A DNA stretch of 56,581 nt from a virus, in IMG/VR virus record IMGVR_UViG_3300031576_000050, positions 1-56,581 of that record. One strand, written 5' to 3'. Positions within the stretch are counted from its first letter, which is position 1, and each line of letters starts with the position of its first letter. The notes beneath the pieces are model-generated. The model made no database searches. It was not told the DNA's origin and worked only from the letters and a program-made list of their open reading frames with translations. Below, in pieces: positions 1-56,581 of the stretch. The position numbers and the translations under genes are program-made.

Positions 1-50
1 GACGTATAGTCTGGGGCCAATGCGCGGTCTACCTACACGTCCTGCTGCCA
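1..50 (-). CDS. Partial copy (5' end) of ribbon-helix-helix protein gene
   Basis: The ATG at 48-50 and the following codons are identical to the start of the gene at 56196-56390 and run off the left edge of the window after about 16 codons. It is the same gene seen through the terminal repeat, not a second paralogue. The leader AGAGAGGCCAGA lies immediately upstream. Confidence 0.85.
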
Positions 51-246
51 TTCTGGCCTCTCTCCATTTCCGGCGTCTGCAATACCTAGAGAGCCGAGCT
101 TACTCCCTTACCCTGCAGCCAGCCAGCCAGTCATGCCCTGACAAGGCAGCCTTTCGACGCCTAGCCCAGGTAAGGGCATGCCTGAGTGCATCACGTGCGT
201 GTGGCTTGCCAACAGTGGGTAAGTACATCCCAATGGCCTTTAGCCT
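1..246. repeat. Direct terminal repeat, left copy
   Basis: Bases 1-246 recur at 56340-56581. The two copies read identically except that this one has three AGCC units near 118-129 and the right copy has two. The repeat contains the 3' end of the RuvC-like gene and the 5' end of the ribbon-helix-helix gene. It is either a true terminal redundancy or the unmerged overlap of a circular assembly. Because of the indel it is not a simple exact k-mer overlap. Confidence 0.95.
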
Positions 247-20380: not shown

Positions 20381-20752
20381 CTACGCTGATCCTACCCCTG
20401 TAGCCTGGCTGCCGCTACTAGGCGCCTGCCGCCCCATTGCCAGTGCACGGTCTGCGACTCCCGTGGGCTTCCAGAGGCCAAAATGGATTCCCGCCGCAAA
20501 CACCATATTGACAACAAGGTTCATGATGATTGGAATCGGTAAAAACTCAACCCCTGCAGCTAGCGCCGCAATGAAAGCCTCAATGAAGACTTTCAGCCCC
20601 ATGAACAGAAGCAGGAGCAACGCTTTTGTCTTGGCCGATGTGATGCGAGTCGACACGAGGCCAACCCCAAGGGGTATCGCCATCATTAGGACAAGCGAAA
20701 GCAACCCTGCAAGGTTTGGTGTGAAAGCATATATCACGGGGAGCTCATCCAT
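20381..20752 (-). CDS. Holin-like membrane protein, three predicted helices
   Basis: This 123-residue protein has hydrophobic stretches at about 14-34, 43-67 and 72-93 and a polar Gly/Ser-rich C-terminus. It is the last of three small membrane-protein genes following the endolysin, which is the usual place for holins. It overlaps the upstream membrane gene by 8 bases. Confidence 0.65.
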   Translation of the reverse strand: MDELPVIYAFTPNLAGLLSLVLMMAIPLGVGLVSTRITSAKTKALLLLLFMGLKVFIEAFIAALAAGVEFLPIPIIMNLVVNMVFAAGIHFGLWKPTGVADRALAMGRQAPSSGSQATGVGSA

Positions 20753-21029
20753 CAGTGCTCACTGAACCTCTCTGTGTTCTCAAAAGCAGGATCACCCAAG
20801 CCCAACAATTGATAGCAAGGACACCCCATCCAACTGTCCATACCCAGGCAGGGAAGCCACCTGCCAGCAGATCAGAGGCCCGGAGCATGATGAGTCCGCC
20901 TAGCACTGCTCTATCGATCATGTGGAAGCGACCAACATCATACTCTTTCCACTTTGTCCTTAGCAGTAGTGCAGCAAAGGTCAGGCAACCAAGTGCTGCA
21001 ATAAGTAGCACGACTACACTTGGCGTCAT
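20745..21029 (-). CDS. Small membrane protein, holin-like
   Basis: The 94-residue protein has predicted helices at about 3-23, 41-58 and 62-84 joined by short polar turns (LLRTKWKEYDVGRFH). It is the second membrane protein of the lysis cassette and overlaps its neighbours on both sides by a few bases. It could be a holin or an antiholin. Confidence 0.6.
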   Translation of the reverse strand: MTPSVVVLLIAALGCLTFAALLLRTKWKEYDVGRFHMIDRAVLGGLIMLRASDLLAGGFPAWVWTVGWGVLAINCWAWVILLLRTQRGSVSTDG

Positions 21030-21424
21030 CCCTGCTCCCTTGATCGGAAAGCCTGTGTGACCCTAGCTGCGAATTCCTGGTCTGGCAATCTGTGGACTGT
21101 ACGCGCTGCTCTCCTAATAGCTGGCGTCTCTCGGCGCACCTGGGCTAGCTTAGCAGCAGCCTCAGCCTCTGCGCCATCATTATGAACCGTCCTATGCCAG
21201 ATGGCCTGCAACAAACGCCTCCAGTCAATCATCACAAAGTCCGATCTCATCCAGAAGGTGGCCTGCCATAGCTTGGCAGCCTCTCTATGGTCATCAGCTC
21301 GTCTGCGTTCAGCTGCTACAGCATCAGCATGCAACTTATATCCAGCTCCTGCAATAGTCGTTATGATCCCACCCGCGACTAGGGATTGGACCAGGTCTGG
21401 CCATGTCACCGGTCCAATCCCCAA
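21026..21424 (-). CDS. Membrane-anchored lysis-cassette protein
   Basis: One N-terminal hydrophobic segment (LVQSLVAGGIITTIAGAGY, about 11-29) is followed by a long charged helix rich in Ala, Arg and Glu. The single-anchor, cytoplasmic/periplasmic coiled form resembles phage holin-associated or spanin-like proteins, but no specific family is clear. It sits directly downstream of the endolysin. Confidence 0.6.
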   Translation of the reverse strand: MGIGPVTWPDLVQSLVAGGIITTIAGAGYKLHADAVAAERRRADDHREAAKLWQATFWMRSDFVMIDWRRLLQAIWHRTVHNDGAEAEAAAKLAQVRRETPAIRRAARTVHRLPDQEFAARVTQAFRSREQG

Positions 21425-21430
21425 TCACCA

Positions 21431-22222
21431 TCAGTACTTGACTCGAATGCCCATGTCCCGCCAGTCGGCACGGGCCACTACGCCTGTGCCAGTCCGGCCA
21501 CGCTGGCGCTGCCACCAGGCGACGCGCACTCCCGTTAGCGGACCATACACGCCATCATCCTTGATCCGGTTTAGTGCGCTACCGCGCACCCAGCGCTGGA
21601 CAAATCTCACATCTACACCAGTCATCCTTGGTGTAGCGATCCTGAGGTCACGAGTCCCTGGCGCATGGACAGATGGCAGTGGGGGCTTCACCCCTCTGAC
21701 ACGAGCAATGTACTGTGCCTTGGTCTCGCCTGAGATAGCGGAGTAGACCGCATCATATGCGCTTGAGTCATTCCAGTACCTACGACGGATACTGAGATGG
21801 ACATGTGACTTGTGATCAGGGGAAGCCCAGATGACAGTTCCAGAGACTATGTCATAGCGCTTGGCGTCACCAGACCCCAGCCAGCCATTGAAGGCATTGA
21901 TGTACTGCCGGCGCGGGTCCTCCTTGTCATTGTAGATAGCGATCAGACGAAGCGTACACAATCGCATATCAGCTGGGCTCATAGACTCGTCCAGGGCTGT
22001 GGAGTGCTCTCTGGACCAGTCACCAGGCGGCGCTGCATCATCTAGTCGTACTGCCGAGTAGTTGCGGGGGCCTTTGCCGGGCTGGTCTTCCAGGCTGACG
22101 TGGTACCCGCCCCGACGCATGTGTGCTGCGTCACCAACAATACCAGAGAGCACAGCCGAGCGGTAGACAGCCTCCCACTGGCGGGCCAGCACCTTCATCT
22201 TGTCAGTAGCCAGTGTTGTCAT
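21431..22222 (-). CDS. Endolysin: M15-like peptidase plus peptidoglycan-binding domain
   Basis: The 263-residue protein begins with a catalytic domain containing GDAAHMRRGGYHVS and DHKSHVHLS (near 138), the His/Asp zinc pattern of actinophage M15-type endopeptidases. A C-terminal peptidoglycan-binding domain follows (VDVRFVQRW to VRVAWWQRQRG, about 200-245). It would cut cell-wall peptides at lysis. ATG at 22222 is chosen for its GGAGAGG site. Start codons farther upstream overlap the previous gene. Three membrane-protein genes follow. Confidence 0.8.
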   Translation of the reverse strand: MTTLATDKMKVLARQWEAVYRSAVLSGIVGDAAHMRRGGYHVSLEDQPGKGPRNYSAVRLDDAAPPGDWSREHSTALDESMSPADMRLCTLRLIAIYNDKEDPRRQYINAFNGWLGSGDAKRYDIVSGTVIWASPDHKSHVHLSIRRRYWNDSSAYDAVYSAISGETKAQYIARVRGVKPPLPSVHAPGTRDLRIATPRMTGVDVRFVQRWVRGSALNRIKDDGVYGPLTGVRVAWWQRQRGRTGTGVVARADWRDMGIRVKY

Positions 22223-22541
22223 CGTCCACATCCTCTCCATCAAGCCGCTCCTGGTCGCCGACATCTGACCCGGGCAACCATGGCGCAGCTATGACATCAT
22301 AGTCGCTTTCCCTGGCTGCCCGCTGGCGGGAGTTTACAGTCTCATCACCCTCATCCAGAAGGATCATGCCTGCTGGGTGAGTACAGAGGAATGCTGTGCC
22401 ATCCCAGCCATAAAGCCATGCCCTATCAGCATCACGGTCGCACACAAGAAAACCTTTCGGGAATCTACTGTATGCCTCCATCCCGTTCATTGGGCCGCCT
22501 ATACAAGTGCCAGTGTACAGGTCTGCGCCTTCATAGTCCAT
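22203..22541 (-). CDS. Hypothetical protein, 112 residues
   Basis: The beta-rich N-terminal half contains CIGGPMNG and paired strands (AWLYGWDGTAFLC). The C-terminus is acidic and ends DGEDVDDDNTGY. It lies between a fibre-like gene and the endolysin, overlapping the latter by 20 bases. The family is not recognised. It could be a minor virion or lysis accessory protein. Confidence 0.55.
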   Translation of the reverse strand: MDYEGADLYTGTCIGGPMNGMEAYSRFPKGFLVCDRDADRAWLYGWDGTAFLCTHPAGMILLDEGDETVNSRQRAARESDYDVIAAPWLPGSDVGDQERLDGEDVDDDNTGY

Positions 22542-43966: not shown

Positions 43967-45487
43967 TCATCTCGACCTAACAGCTGTTCGCTGCCTAGTT
44001 TGCTTGTATGGGTTCCCGAGCATCCCAGAGAACAACCGTCCCAGTGCCTCTGCTGTGTGGTCATCCTTCTTCTGTGGGTTCTCAGGTGCGTTGCGGCCTT
44101 TCTCGCTGGCCTTTTCGGCAGTCTCCGGGTAACGATAGTCGTTCCATTCACGAATTGTCTGCACGCACTTCCTGTTTACAGTCAAAGCTGGCCCATGTGG
44201 TGTAGCTGCAACCTTCATCTTCCTGCGGAACCACTCAAGCCTCTGCTGTATCATTAGACTACCAGGGCTATGTGACGGCACCTTGAGCAGCTGTTCTAAC
44301 CTACGAGTCCTATCCGGCTCAGAGGGGTCAGGGAAGAATCCCCTAATGGTAACAGGCACAAGTTGCCTTGACATGATCTCAACAGCAGCTTCCTCAGTTG
44401 TCTTTCCGGTCTCAAAGTACTCATCTAGTACATGGAACCTGGTGTGAGTCGGGTCAACCTGGACCAGTAGCCACACAAACGGGTTGGTGAAACCATAGTC
44501 AGCGCAGGCCCAAGTCTCCCAACCCATTCTGAAGCCAGCATCATTGACATGTATCTCGTCATCAAAGTCCTTGAACACGCGCCCGACAAACTCAGTGAAC
44601 ATGGCCGCAATCTCCTGGTTAAAGAGCTCAGCGGACATGTCGAGCCACATTGACCAGATCTCTTTATTGATGCCTTCTGGGTACATCACCCCATCAGTTG
44701 CATCACGCATCCATCGCAGAACTTTCTTTGCCTCATCCAGCCGGCCATGCCGCTGGGCCTCTGCAAGTCCTTTGAGCAGCTCCAGGTTCGCGCCACCAGG
44801 ATACACATATGGGTTAGCCCAGGCGGGAGAGCGCCAGGACTTCCAGTCTATACGCTCTGGGTCCTGACCTATCATGTACAAGTCATAGTACCAGTTCTTG
44901 CCCTCTGGTGTGCTGCCAAAGTGAGCCCAACCGCCAAAGTCCGCCAGTGTTGGGCGGATGAACTTCTCCCACACACTGGGCTTTAGCTTAGCAGCCTCTG
45001 AGAACACAACACCAGACAATCCCTCGCCAACGAGGGTGCCTGGGTACTTAGCCGACATCGCATGCACAACGAACAACCGGTCAAACAATGATATGTGCAT
45101 ATCACCAGACTCAGGGTTGTTGTATGAACCAGGGTGGTCAAATGTAAAACCAAGACGCTTAAGAGAGCTCCAGAGTATCCTGAACTCCTTCTCAGAGTCG
45201 CTGTACTCAGGGCCAACGATCCAGTACTCCCGCCGCAGGCCACGTACCTTGAGCATGTCCATCTCATACCAGGTTCGGAAAGCCTCAGGGATTAACCTCT
45301 GTGCGCCTGTCTGGCTCTTGCCCGCCCGGCGGCCGGCAGCGAGCACCTTGTTCCTGGTGCGGTCTAGCAGAATCTCTCTCTGGAGATTGTATGGGCGCCA
45401 TTGCAGCTGCTCCCATATCCGCCTGACTAGCCGCTCAGGCGGGACAGGAGTCGCCAGAAGCTGCTCAGCTATGGCGCTCGTGCTCAC
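43967..45487 (-). CDS. terL: Terminase large subunit
   Basis: The 506-residue packaging motor has Walker A VLAAGRRAGKSQTG near residue 57 and Walker B GVVFSEAA near 158. Its C-terminal RNase H-like nuclease has ACADYGFTNPFVW (about 327) and later acidic residues. A GTG start at 45487 shares one base with the small-terminase TAG (TAGTG). It cuts and translocates phage DNA. Whether it makes cohesive, headful or terminal-repeat ends cannot be read directly. Confidence 0.95.
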   Translation of the reverse strand: MSTSAIAEQLLATPVPPERLVRRIWEQLQWRPYNLQREILLDRTRNKVLAAGRRAGKSQTGAQRLIPEAFRTWYEMDMLKVRGLRREYWIVGPEYSDSEKEFRILWSSLKRLGFTFDHPGSYNNPESGDMHISLFDRLFVVHAMSAKYPGTLVGEGLSGVVFSEAAKLKPSVWEKFIRPTLADFGGWAHFGSTPEGKNWYYDLYMIGQDPERIDWKSWRSPAWANPYVYPGGANLELLKGLAEAQRHGRLDEAKKVLRWMRDATDGVMYPEGINKEIWSMWLDMSAELFNQEIAAMFTEFVGRVFKDFDDEIHVNDAGFRMGWETWACADYGFTNPFVWLLVQVDPTHTRFHVLDEYFETGKTTEEAAVEIMSRQLVPVTIRGFFPDPSEPDRTRRLEQLLKVPSHSPGSLMIQQRLEWFRRKMKVAATPHGPALTVNRKCVQTIREWNDYRYPETAEKASEKGRNAPENPQKKDDHTAEALGRLFSGMLGNPYKQTRQRTAVRSR

Positions 45488-47060: not shown

Positions 47061-47091
47061 GCTCTACCCTACTACAAGCGCAGGGTAGAGC
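47061..47091 (-). terminator. Hairpin spanning the stop of the phosphoesterase gene
   Basis: GCTCTACCCT (47061-47070) pairs perfectly with AGGGTAGAGC (47082-47091) around 11 bases that include the TAG stop at 47072-47074. It lacks a U-run but would end or attenuate the upstream transcript. Confidence 0.55.
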
Positions 47092-49333
47092 TGCCACTGT
47101 CGGAGAATGCCGGGCCTGGCCCGCCCACCTCGCTCACTGGCTTGAATGACCAGCTATAGCCATCCGGCCTGAGCTCAAGCCACAGCACGCCCATAGAGGT
47201 GCACTGTTGCGCGGCTGAACCAGGCAGGAACGGTGCTGAGCCACAGGTAAATCCCTTGCCGCCTGTACCCACGACGAACTCGCGGACACCATTAGCAACT
47301 GGCAGGCCATTGGCGCCAAGAGGGTCAAACCTCTCGTACCAGTGGTCATGGCCATTCAGCACCAGCTGGACATCTGGGTCCGCGACAGCTGCGAGCCAGA
47401 GTGCGTTGGATCCAGTGATGTTGCCATGGCTGCCGCTGGACCAGCGCGGGTGATGGAAGTACATGATCGTTGGCCGGCCATTATTGGCTGCTAGGTCAGA
47501 AGCCAACCAGGCCATCATTGGGTTACTAGCGCCACATCCGCCTACCTGCGAGCAGTCGCTGTCCAGGCTGATGAAGTGCCAGGCTCCCATATCCCATGAG
47601 TAGTACATCTGGTTGGGGCTAGGTGTGTCGCTCCCAATCTGGGCCAGGCGCGGCCCAAAGTAGTCGCGGTAGCCCTGTGCGTTCGCAGTCAACCATTCGT
47701 GGTTCCCTGGGGCTGGGTATATATTGGCCATATGCTTGCCCCAGGCATCACAGTCGGTTGGAGCTGCACACGTCTGCCGGCCCCAGCCAGCATTGTACTC
47801 AGCGAGCGTGTTGCTCTCGTACTGGTTGTCGCCCGTAGTCAGCACCGCATTCGGGCCATACTGGAACAACAGTTCAGCCGTCCAGCCATCCTGACATCCG
47901 GATGTGTATCCATTACACGTTGGTGTCTCGACAATATCACCAGCAACCATCACTGTAACAGCCCCTGCCGGCGTTGTGGGCGTCGGAGTGGGACTGGAGC
48001 AGGCTGCAGCAGCCTGCGCTTGCACATAGGCTGCCAGTGCGATCTCGTCAGCCTCATCAAATGTCACACCCAGCGGCGCTGGGCATGTCTCGGATGGTGT
48101 AGGGCTTGGCGTCGCAGTAGCAGTCGGTTGTGGGGTTGAATTCCCATATGCATCATGCAGCGCGTCCTGATAGGTACCATACCCACTAGCGCTTCCCCAG
48201 CTTGGACTGCTCTCGATAGCAGAACCCTCGCCCCATTCATTGAAGTAGGTCAGCTTCCATTGTGCAGCTGCAGCCTTCTGGCTGGCGACGTTAGCGACCC
48301 ACTGAACCGGGTCACGCGTCAGCCTTGGGGCAGCCTCGTTGTGGTGCCAGAACCCAGCTGAGATGCCATATGAGTATGGCAGGTGAGAGCTAGTTCGTAC
48401 AGCCGGCCCATACTGGTGCCAACTTGAAGGCTGGTCAGCGCAACTCTTGTAGTTACTGAACACCTTCATGTTGACATACCAGTCAGTAAATCCATTCGTG
48501 GCAGTCTTCCACTTCGTCACCTCTGCACAGCTACTACTGCCTGCATTGTAGACAAAGATGACTGGCTTCCCGCCGAGCAAGACAGCAGAGTTAGGATATG
48601 CATTCACATATCCATTCAGATAGGCCAGATCAGACTGGATCTTAGCCACCGTCGGGTCTGGGCTCTGTGCCTCTGGCTCATAGTACGGCATAACGCCAAA
48701 GCCCGCCACGGCGGCGCGCTGGTAGAGGAGTGGGAAGCGCGTCTGCTCGCTCTGTGCACCCTGCCCCCACCAGCTAGCGATCATCGCCTCAGTGCCAGAG
48801 TGCTGCATGGCGTCAATGTGCTTGTCGATAACAGCAGAGTTGTCACTGGAGTACTGCCCGAGCGACGGCAGGTAGTGGTCATTCGCGTGCCACGTCTGCG
48901 GAAACCATGGGTAGTAGAACGCAGCGCGCATTGGCGTTGTGAATGATGCCACGGCATGCACAGGCGTACTGGACACGGCACCTAACAGCAGGGCTATAGC
49001 CAGCACAGTAGCAGCAGCCACTGCCCCCTTGACAACGCGGCTGGCGTTCACTGCTCTCAGCCAAAGTCGCCTCTTGCTATGCCTCGAATGACAGATCATG
49101 TTCCGCCATCCTTTCAGGATCTGGTGCGCTAAAACCCGGCCATCCAGCCCGACAATCCTTAGTGGTTGGGTAGGCTCACGCAGGATGCGTGCCCATTGTG
49201 CCTGTGCTCTTATGAACGGCTCAGCTTCCTCCCAGGCCAGATCAGTTGCACGGCCCCAACCAACCCTATAGCTGATACGGATACCAACAAGGCTGGCCAG
49301 AAGGAACAATGCACCCACTATCGCAGTTGCCAT
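47072..49333 (-). CDS. Exported GH99-like glycoside hydrolase fused to calcineurin-like phosphoesterase
   Basis: The 753-residue protein has a hydrophobic N-terminus (about 1-20) and a second signal-like segment after basic residues (KGAVAAATVLAIALLLGAVS, about 103-122). A GH99/GH71-like domain follows (about 133-388), with AAFYYPWFPQTW, IASWWGQG, GVMPYYEPEAQ and YFNEWGEGSAIE. A Pro/Thr linker (about 390-455) leads to a metallophosphatase with MVAGDI, GDNQY (503), GNHEW (543), FHHPRW (628) and NGHDHWYERF (663), so all the usual metal ligands appear present. ATG at 49333 has GGGGTG upstream. An internal ATG at 49099 is an alternative start giving a classic signal peptide. It follows a secreted peptidase gene. 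Cell-envelope remodelling is an inference. Confidence 0.8.
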   Translation of the reverse strand: MATAIVGALFLLASLVGIRISYRVGWGRATDLAWEEAEPFIRAQAQWARILREPTQPLRIVGLDGRVLAHQILKGWRNMICHSRHSKRRLWLRAVNASRVVKGAVAAATVLAIALLLGAVSSTPVHAVASFTTPMRAAFYYPWFPQTWHANDHYLPSLGQYSSDNSAVIDKHIDAMQHSGTEAMIASWWGQGAQSEQTRFPLLYQRAAVAGFGVMPYYEPEAQSPDPTVAKIQSDLAYLNGYVNAYPNSAVLLGGKPVIFVYNAGSSSCAEVTKWKTATNGFTDWYVNMKVFSNYKSCADQPSSWHQYGPAVRTSSHLPYSYGISAGFWHHNEAAPRLTRDPVQWVANVASQKAAAAQWKLTYFNEWGEGSAIESSPSWGSASGYGTYQDALHDAYGNSTPQPTATATPSPTPSETCPAPLGVTFDEADEIALAAYVQAQAAAACSSPTPTPTTPAGAVTVMVAGDIVETPTCNGYTSGCQDGWTAELLFQYGPNAVLTTGDNQYESNTLAEYNAGWGRQTCAAPTDCDAWGKHMANIYPAPGNHEWLTANAQGYRDYFGPRLAQIGSDTPSPNQMYYSWDMGAWHFISLDSDCSQVGGCGASNPMMAWLASDLAANNGRPTIMYFHHPRWSSGSHGNITGSNALWLAAVADPDVQLVLNGHDHWYERFDPLGANGLPVANGVREFVVGTGGKGFTCGSAPFLPGSAAQQCTSMGVLWLELRPDGYSWSFKPVSEVGGPGPAFSDSGSSTLRL

Positions 49334-49335
49334 TG

Positions 49336-50070
49336 CTAGCACCCCAATCGAGCGCTGTGTGCCAACATCCATGCACCAGGATTGATGGAGGCAGGCCATA
49401 TGCCGCTCCCCCTGCGCACCTCAAAGTGCAGATGTGATCCTGGATGTGGCTGGCTGTAGTTGCTGCTCACTATGTGTCCAGTGTTCCCGACACGCCCGAT
49501 AATCTCGCCAGCTGTTATGTGCTGGCCTGGGCGGACATACTCCACTGACATGTGCCCGTAGTGAGTCTTGATGCCCCCAGAGTGTGCAATCATCACTGAG
49601 ATGCCATACCCTCTGTGGATCCATCCGGCGCCGATCACTGTGCCACTAGCAGCAGCCCGGATAGGCATGCCCCATGGGCGTAGCAGGTCATACCCAGCGT
49701 GGAAACTTCCCCATCTCGGTCCATAGCCAGAGGTGACACAGGCATTCCCAATCGGGCGTACCCATCCAATGGCTGAAGGCGATGCTGGCGCTGGGGTCCG
49801 GCTGGCACCTAGAGGCACCCAATAGCTCCGCCCAGCATGGATGAGGCTTTGTGAGTTGATGGAGGGGTTGGCCGCCCGAATCCTTGCGACATCACAGCGG
49901 CCATAATAGTGTGCTGAGATACCACACACCGTATGTGACCATCCTGACGTTGTCGCGGTAACCCAGGTGCCGTTACCACTCTCTGTACTTGCATGCGCAG
50001 GCGTTCCCATTACGCCTAGCGCCAGTAGGGCAGCAGCAACTACTGCTACACGCCCCAATCCTCGTAACAT
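49336..50070 (-). CDS. Secreted LysM-M23 metallopeptidase
   Basis: The 244-residue protein has a signal peptide (basic MLRGLGR, hydrophobic core, AHA cleavage near 26). A LysM-like segment follows (TVCGISAHYYGRCDVARIRAANPSINSQSLIHAGRSYWVP, about 48-90). An M23 domain has HAGYDLLRPWG (about 123) and HLHFEV (about 208), supplying zinc ligands with GHMS between. It would cut peptide cross-links from outside the membrane. Having a signal peptide, it does not need a holin, unlike the endolysin at 21431. It is adjacent to the GH99-like/phosphoesterase gene. Confidence 0.85.
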   Translation of the reverse strand: MLRGLGRVAVVAAALLALGVMGTPAHASTESGNGTWVTATTSGWSHTVCGISAHYYGRCDVARIRAANPSINSQSLIHAGRSYWVPLGASRTPAPASPSAIGWVRPIGNACVTSGYGPRWGSFHAGYDLLRPWGMPIRAAASGTVIGAGWIHRGYGISVMIAHSGGIKTHYGHMSVEYVRPGQHITAGEIIGRVGNTGHIVSSNYSQPHPGSHLHFEVRRGSGIWPASINPGAWMLAHSARLGC

Positions 50071-56199: not shown

Positions 56200-56390
56200 G
56201 TGGAGCTAACCTCTAGCTCAGCTTCAGCCATTAGCTCCCTGATCCTGTCAGAGACAGCATTCCGAACAATGACGCTTTTATGCACATTCATTGCTGCAGA
56301 AAGCTGGGATAACTGGATATAGTCTAGGTCAGGCAGCCTGACGTATAGTCTGGGGCCAATGCGCGGTCTACCTACACGTCCTGCTGCCAT
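56196..56390 (-). CDS. Ribbon-helix-helix DNA-binding protein, 64 residues
   Basis: The basic strand RPRIGPRLYVRLPD is followed by two helices (YIQLSQLSAAMNVHKSVIVRNAVSDRIREL). This is the Arc/CopG-like pattern of a small dimeric repressor. It starts in the terminal repeat with a start-associated AGAGAGGCCAGA leader and is coupled to the primase-helicase gene, so it may autoregulate replication. Its binding site is unknown. Palindromes at 20083-20102 and 53490-53519 are candidates. Confidence 0.75.
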   Translation of the reverse strand: MAAGRVGRPRIGPRLYVRLPDLDYIQLSQLSAAMNVHKSVIVRNAVSDRIRELMAEAELEVSST

Positions 56391-56581
56391 TCTGGCCTCT
56401 CTCCATTTCCGGCGTCTGCAATACCTAGAGAGCCGAGCTTACTCCCTTACCCTGCAGCCAGCCAGTCATGCCCTGACAAGGCAGCCTTTCGACGCCTAGC
56501 CCAGGTAAGGGCATGCCTGAGTGCATCACGTGCGTGTGGCTTGCCAACAGTGGGTAAGTACATCCCAATGGCCTTTAGCCT
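56340..56581. repeat. Direct terminal repeat, right copy
   Basis: This 242-base segment matches 1-246 with one AGCC unit missing. It carries the start of the ribbon-helix-helix gene and, beyond it, the tail end of the RuvC-like gene. The missing four bases shift that gene's last codons. Confidence 0.95.

Follow-up and report, generated by a model that had tools for sequence, protein, structure and literature searches.

A single gene in the genome of a soil-type bacteriophage encodes one protein composed of a GH99-family glycoside hydrolase domain, a Pro/Thr-rich linker, and a purple-acid-phosphatase-like metallophosphoesterase (MPE), and other phages, as well as bacterial genomes, also join GH99 with a phosphatase. 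We propose, with a confidence that stops a little short of even, that this would be an exported two-enzyme protein stripping a phosphate-bearing, alpha-mannose-type glycan from the host envelope late in infection, thereby aiding wall breach and release. The gene lies in a record of 56,581 bp, called here the window, that is, the whole stretch of DNA that was analysed (Table 1).

The fusion gene and its two domains

The open reading frame of the fusion, taken from stop to ATG, reaches 49399 and has its stop at 47072. The upstream start codon, ATG 49333, lies two bases after the stop codon of the preceding M23 peptidase gene, and its use would add a 78-aa leader for which the closest homologue, carried by phage contig L085, shows no counterpart. 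The signal-peptide-like stretch starts at Met79, that is, at ATG 49099, with a basic n-region, a hydrophobic core, and VHA, and this second ATG is preceded by AAGGA, better than what stands upstream of ATG 49333. Judged from these features of the sequence, the fusion is apparently exported, and the classical look of this N terminus lends support to the export signals noted in the preliminary description.

Table 1. Features of the window and of the fusion gene (strand in the third column)
Feature	Position	Strand	Details
GH99-linker-MPE gene	47072..49333	-	753 aa from ATG 49333; alternative ATG 49099 = 675 aa
Possible N-terminal leader (hydrophobic segment + about 55 aa)	49100..49333	-	depends on the use of ATG 49333
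Signal-peptide-like N terminus, MICHSRHSKRRLW...LLLGAVSSTPVHA	48953..49099	-	by eye and hydropathy scan
GH99 domain	48128..48946	-	Pfam PF16317, PDB sequence matches 4ad1/4acy, Foldseek 4ad0 target TM 0.60-0.62
FNEWGEGSAIE motif in GH99 domain	48212..48244	-	alignment to BxGH99
Pro/Thr-rich linker	47960..48142	-	sequence; low model confidence
Purple-acid-phosphatase-like MPE domain (GDI, GDNQY, GNHE, HHPR, GHDH)	47075..47959	-	Pfam, motifs, Foldseek
M23 peptidase, predicted-secreted	49336..50070	-	Pfam PF01551 E 1e-24; with intact HxGxD and HxH metal motifs
Terminase large subunit, downstream late genes	43967..45487	-	phrog_2 E 3e-36
Separate lysis cassette	20381..22264	-	holin 20381-20752, holin-like 20745-21029, endolysin 21431-22264
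Direct terminal repeat	1..246, copy 56336-56581	.	about 246 bp; 4-nt offset between halves

Both domains score above their Pfam cut-offs, which confirms the earlier description of one phage gene joining a glycosidase-like domain, a Pro/Thr linker, and a metallophosphatase: PF16317 (Glyco_hydro_99) matches with E 3e-11 and 43.5 bits (gathering score 33), the N-terminal half of the profile being covered, and PF00149 (Metallophos) with E 2e-8 and 35.2 bits (gathering score 21.5). A sequence search of the PDB returned GH99 enzymes from Bacteroides and weaker matches to phosphohydrolases and purple acid phosphatases. Glu366 and Glu369 of the fusion align with the catalytic Glu pair of BxGH99, Glu333/Glu336, and NEWGE is invariant across 11 homologues and aligned with 4ad1. 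On the phosphatase side, the GDN, GNHE, HHPR, and GHDH motifs, described before as intact, were all located in the sequence (residues 501, 543, 627, and 661, respectively), and the metal-ligand set of GDI, GDNQY, GNHE, HH, and GHDH is complete and conserved with the homologues, the first motif being GDIV and not DxG. The GH99 and phosphatase active sites are both apparently intact.

An AlphaFold model of the fusion, built on a 29-row alignment of the window and locus sequences, has a mean pLDDT of 81 with an unstructured linker. By Foldseek, the GH99 part of the model matched GH99 structures at target TM-scores of about 0.55-0.62 (for 4ad0/4ad5, about 0.60 with E about 1e-10 to 1e-9) and the MPE part matched the purple acid phosphatases 2bq8 and 7ov8 (E about 1e-13, target TM 0.66-0.69); as modelled, the first half adopts the GH99 (beta/alpha)8 fold and the second the purple acid phosphatase fold. 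The profile searches and structure prediction that had been suggested for the two domains have, in this way, given Pfam and fold matches for each, including the glycoside hydrolase fold on which the first reading of the gene had been made to depend.

The bacterial GH99 endo-alpha-1,2-mannosidases/mannanases (BtGH99/BxGH99, PF16317) share with the fusion the fold, the NEWxEG catalytic motif, and the Pfam family, but the fusion is only 17-20% identical to them, joined to a phosphatase, and encoded by a phage, and its mannosidase activity is predicted. Similarly, the purple acid phosphatases and calcineurin-like phosphoesterases (PF00149) have the same fold and the GDxxY, GNHE, HH, and GHxH motifs, whereas the MPE of the fusion, with a predicted phosphatase activity, is joined to a glycosidase. 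A PHROG profile search gave no family matching the fusion, and a defence system was rejected as a candidate, given that the PADLOC defence-system search gave no match.

The phage genome around the gene

The window includes genes for terminase, portal, major head protein, primase, and DNA polymerase, the first three on the same strand as the fusion, and its GC content stays between 0.53 and 0.59 throughout. The direct terminal repeat suggests that the record is a complete phage genome, and together with the uniform GC and the phage genes on both sides of the fusion, it led us to reject a misassembly with a host contig; such a joining, which the preliminary description had named as the way in which its reading could fail, is unlikely. 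By terminase, the nearest cultured relatives are Gordonia phages (47%). A scan for sigma-70 types found no promoter-like or terminator-like sites around the genes.

Directly upstream of the fusion lies the M23 peptidase gene, whose signal-peptide-like sequence agrees with the secreted peptidase previously placed there; the description of a secreted endolysin, a muralytic domain with a signal peptide, may suit this neighbour, as judged from its sequence, and does not suit the fusion. The fusion gene itself is upstream of the terminase and away from the tail genes. We rejected the fusion and the M23 gene as a canonical lysis cassette since the holins and endolysin sit at 20.4-22.3 kb, and because the phage possesses this holin-endolysin cassette of its own about 25 kb away, basic lysis does not require the fusion and its M23 neighbour.

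GH99 and phosphatases in other phages and in cells

GH99/phosphatase pairs were recovered by alignment-based scans, single-protein scans of the viral and genome collections having found nothing, and the larger contigs were checked to be phage by their terminase, portal, capsid, or tape-measure matches. A match in a Betaguttavirus was set aside because its translation was in the wrong frame. GH99-MPE fusions of phages are found in the window and in L085, L082, L083, and L081; that of L085, with its GH99 half below Pfam reporting, is 56% identical to the window in GH99 and 67% in the MPE. In L077, GH99 is fused instead to PF04185, a phosphoesterase of another superfamily that is non-homologous to the MPE, and the same gene is present in L078 and L079 (three contigs), while L150 has the reversed order, PF04185 and then GH99, and L080/L103 have both as overlapping genes. 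In L146, a second domain stands behind GH99 that shares 40% identity with the C terminus of a Saccharibacteria-binned protein (L062), and this second domain looks phosphoesterase-like, with no Pfam confirmation. In L077-L079, L083, L082, and L081, the surroundings of the gene include terminase, portal, or capsid genes. Near a phage GH99-MPE fusion, beyond the capsid gene, a GDP-mannose 4,6-dehydratase gene was seen (L099:2512-3534, genome G026), and in the archaeal Aeropyrum pernix ovoid virus 1 (L060, HE580237.1 5870-6310), a GH99-like stretch with 28.5% identity and E 1e-8 overlaps an annotated hypothetical gene.

In a loose search, no GH99 match was present in 22 phage records with related terminases, and the idea of a gene typical of the window's phage group was rejected on this count (0/22). 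An exported two-domain enzyme beside a secreted peptidase had been called unusual; the fusion is not unique to the window, since the suggested search in related phages and host genomes found it in other phages and in Thermomicrobium-like bacteria.

GH99 and MPE in one frame were found in five Chloroflexota genomes (L108-L111, L113) among 400, in a scan that scored no more than two candidates in each genome. These Thermomicrobium-like proteins have the same domain order and a Pro/Thr linker, and they differ from the phage proteins in an extra N-terminal CBM96, placed in L108 in front of GH99-MPE, in being cellular, and in an MPE that is not the closest kin of the phage MPEs; CBM96 or discoidin domains are present in the cellular homologues. 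Their neighbourhood matches a Thermomicrobium roseum plasmid, on which an annotated metallophosphoesterase (L058, NC_011961.1, 229978-231054) opens with the last residues of GH99 and the TP-linker, and because the related genomes keep the whole fusion, this T. roseum copy has lost its GH99 domain. Other cells carry GH99-PF04185 (L107) or PF04185-GH99 (L114), or else GH99 and a phosphatase as neighbouring genes (L067, L072, L140, L129), with GH99 beside separate secreted MPE genes in L067 and L072. A divergent open frame in an Actinomycetota-drawn genome (L134:1040-3334, G525) appears to align over both the GH99 and MPE parts, with 33% identity over residues 45-596. In the Streptomyces relatives, GH99 is preceded by a sigma-70 domain; in L056:2798-4810 and L117 (Streptacidiphilus), a sigma-70 family domain is linked through what seems to be a membrane segment to GH99 at the C terminus, and this type of protein looks like a surface-glycan signalling protein.

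Predicted-secreted hydrolases of three peptidoglycan-hydrolase families are encoded immediately upstream in four phage contigs, namely M23 in the window, NlpC/P60 in L085, LysM-NlpC/P60 in L086, and the transglycosylase phrog_12661 in L081, and no peptidoglycan hydrolase was noticed adjoining the gene in L082, L083, L077, and L150. Five hydrolase neighbours in about eleven loci have a chance of the order of 1e-4, a rough, post hoc estimate with an assumed base rate of perhaps 3% of phage genes. In L086 (9132-10477), the secreted LysM-NlpC/P60 gene is followed by a truncated MPE without the first metal motifs or GH99, apparently a decayed cassette. L143:9005-11519 holds an exported DUF1996-linker-MPE gene with an Amidase_2 endolysin gene directly downstream.

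The AU test rejects a single clade for the MPE domains of the fusions (p-AU 0.0097 for all fusions and p 0.026 for the phage fusions alone); a single ancestral fusion common to all is rejected for the MPE half, and the GH99-phosphatase pairing therefore arose more than once. A tree of the GH99 halves places the window, L085, L081, L082, and L077 together at a support of 88/90, which is no more than suggestive. The MPEs of the window, L085, and L086 have about 59-68% identity and neither L085 nor L086 yielded a window-like terminase, from which the fusion-hydrolase cassette appears to be mobile between phages. The phosphatase slot is filled by non-homologous families, in both domain orders, or by a neighbouring gene, and this repeated assembly points to a shared substrate, given that the repeated pairing of two activities usually means that both act on one substrate.

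A candidate role at the host envelope

We infer that the fusion, made together with the predicted-secreted M23 peptidase, would be exported by the host secretion system and would act on the outer face of the host envelope, late in infection. There, its GH99-type endo-alpha-mannosidase/mannanase domain would cut the alpha-mannose-type glycan, and the purple-acid-phosphatase-type domain would remove from the same polymer the phosphate groups, which through their charge or cross-links would keep the glycosidase from acting, so that wall and capsule would be breached or cleared and the progeny could escape. In yeast-mannan breakdown, GH99 opens the polymer and works with other enzymes, and phosphatases take off the phosphate (PMC10154615). 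The stripping of phosphorylated wall polymers or exopolysaccharide, one of the roles first suggested for this gene, is the best supported because GH99 is repeatedly paired with phosphatases and with peptidoglycan hydrolases; the analysis shows the domains, motifs, folds, gene neighbourhood, and recurrence, and export, substrate, timing, and role are inferred from them. Against it stand the separate holin-endolysin cassette of the phage and the four contigs in which no hydrolase was noticed beside the gene, and the Thermomicrobium-like bacteria carry the fusion without evident phage context, which fits nutrient use too.

Such nutrient use would make the fusion an auxiliary metabolic enzyme, secreted by the infected cell and harvesting phosphate and sugar from environmental phosphomannans (e.g., fungal walls) for phage replication. 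The purple-acid-phosphatase and PF04185 folds are typical of secreted phosphatases, and this, the CBM96 or discoidin domains of the cellular homologues, and the part played by GH99 and phosphatases in yeast mannan use (PMC10154615) all speak for it; we nevertheless consider it unlikely, since the neighbourhood of the fusion showed no gene for the uptake of sugar or phosphate, the genes associated with it are peptidoglycan hydrolases and late structural genes, and a lytic cycle gives an extracellular enzyme little time to pay off. Little probability is also given to a remodelling of the surface, in which a glycan receptor would be removed from the infected cell, its neighbours, or debris, blocking superinfection or re-adsorption with or without lysogeny: it fits all the genomic evidence, including the export signals and glycan specificity, but no receptor is known, no integrase or repressor was noticed among the annotated window genes (part of the ORFs scanned), and the peptidoglycan hydrolase partner is left unexplained. 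A virion-associated entry enzyme, that is, a tail- or head-borne depolymerase, is quite improbable, for although several phages place the gene among head and packaging genes and the GH99 of L080 and L084 is without a signal peptide at the annotated start, the N terminus is signal-peptide-like in the window and in most homologues, Pfam scans show no tail or fibre domain, and the fusion lies outside the window's tail gene block, not with tail fibre or spike genes as in virion tail depolymerases.

The stripping of an envelope glycan by an exported fusion is not an entirely new system. Mycobacteriophages use LysB, a mycolylarabinogalactan esterase, for a second envelope layer (PMC5707550, PMC8309991), and the likeness is in the idea that the endolysin is joined by another enzyme against the envelope; LysB differs in that its fold and chemistry are unrelated, its gene is part of the lysis cassette, and it is not a glycosidase, and the fusion is without a LysB-type alpha/beta-hydrolase esterase domain, its Pfam content being GH99 and Metallophos. 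The Tgl of kayviruses, a secreted phage transglycosylase with a signal peptide, is a lytic enzyme beyond the main endolysin (PMC7150955) and in this resembles the secreted M23 neighbour, but acts on peptidoglycan only and is without GH99 or phosphatase. The GH32 levan enzymes of Bacillus phages likewise hydrolyse exopolysaccharide and have a predicted secretion (PMC4595243), and differ from the fusion in belonging to another family, with no classical signal peptide and no phosphatase. An open-access literature search found no paper containing both "GH99" and "metallophosphoesterase".

In a wider sense, an exported depolymerase with a phosphatase could be a general phage tool for breaching a phosphorylated secondary wall glycan, a LysB-like part for certain soil bacteria that would have been put together repeatedly with non-homologous phosphatases and combined with interchangeable secreted peptidoglycan hydrolases, although we regard this claim, taken as a whole, as doubtful. 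The recurrent joining of GH99 with phosphatases predicts a shared phosphate-bearing glycan, whose discovery would put a name to a surface polymer of soil bacteria and would tell whether a second, exported envelope enzyme serves release in some phages.
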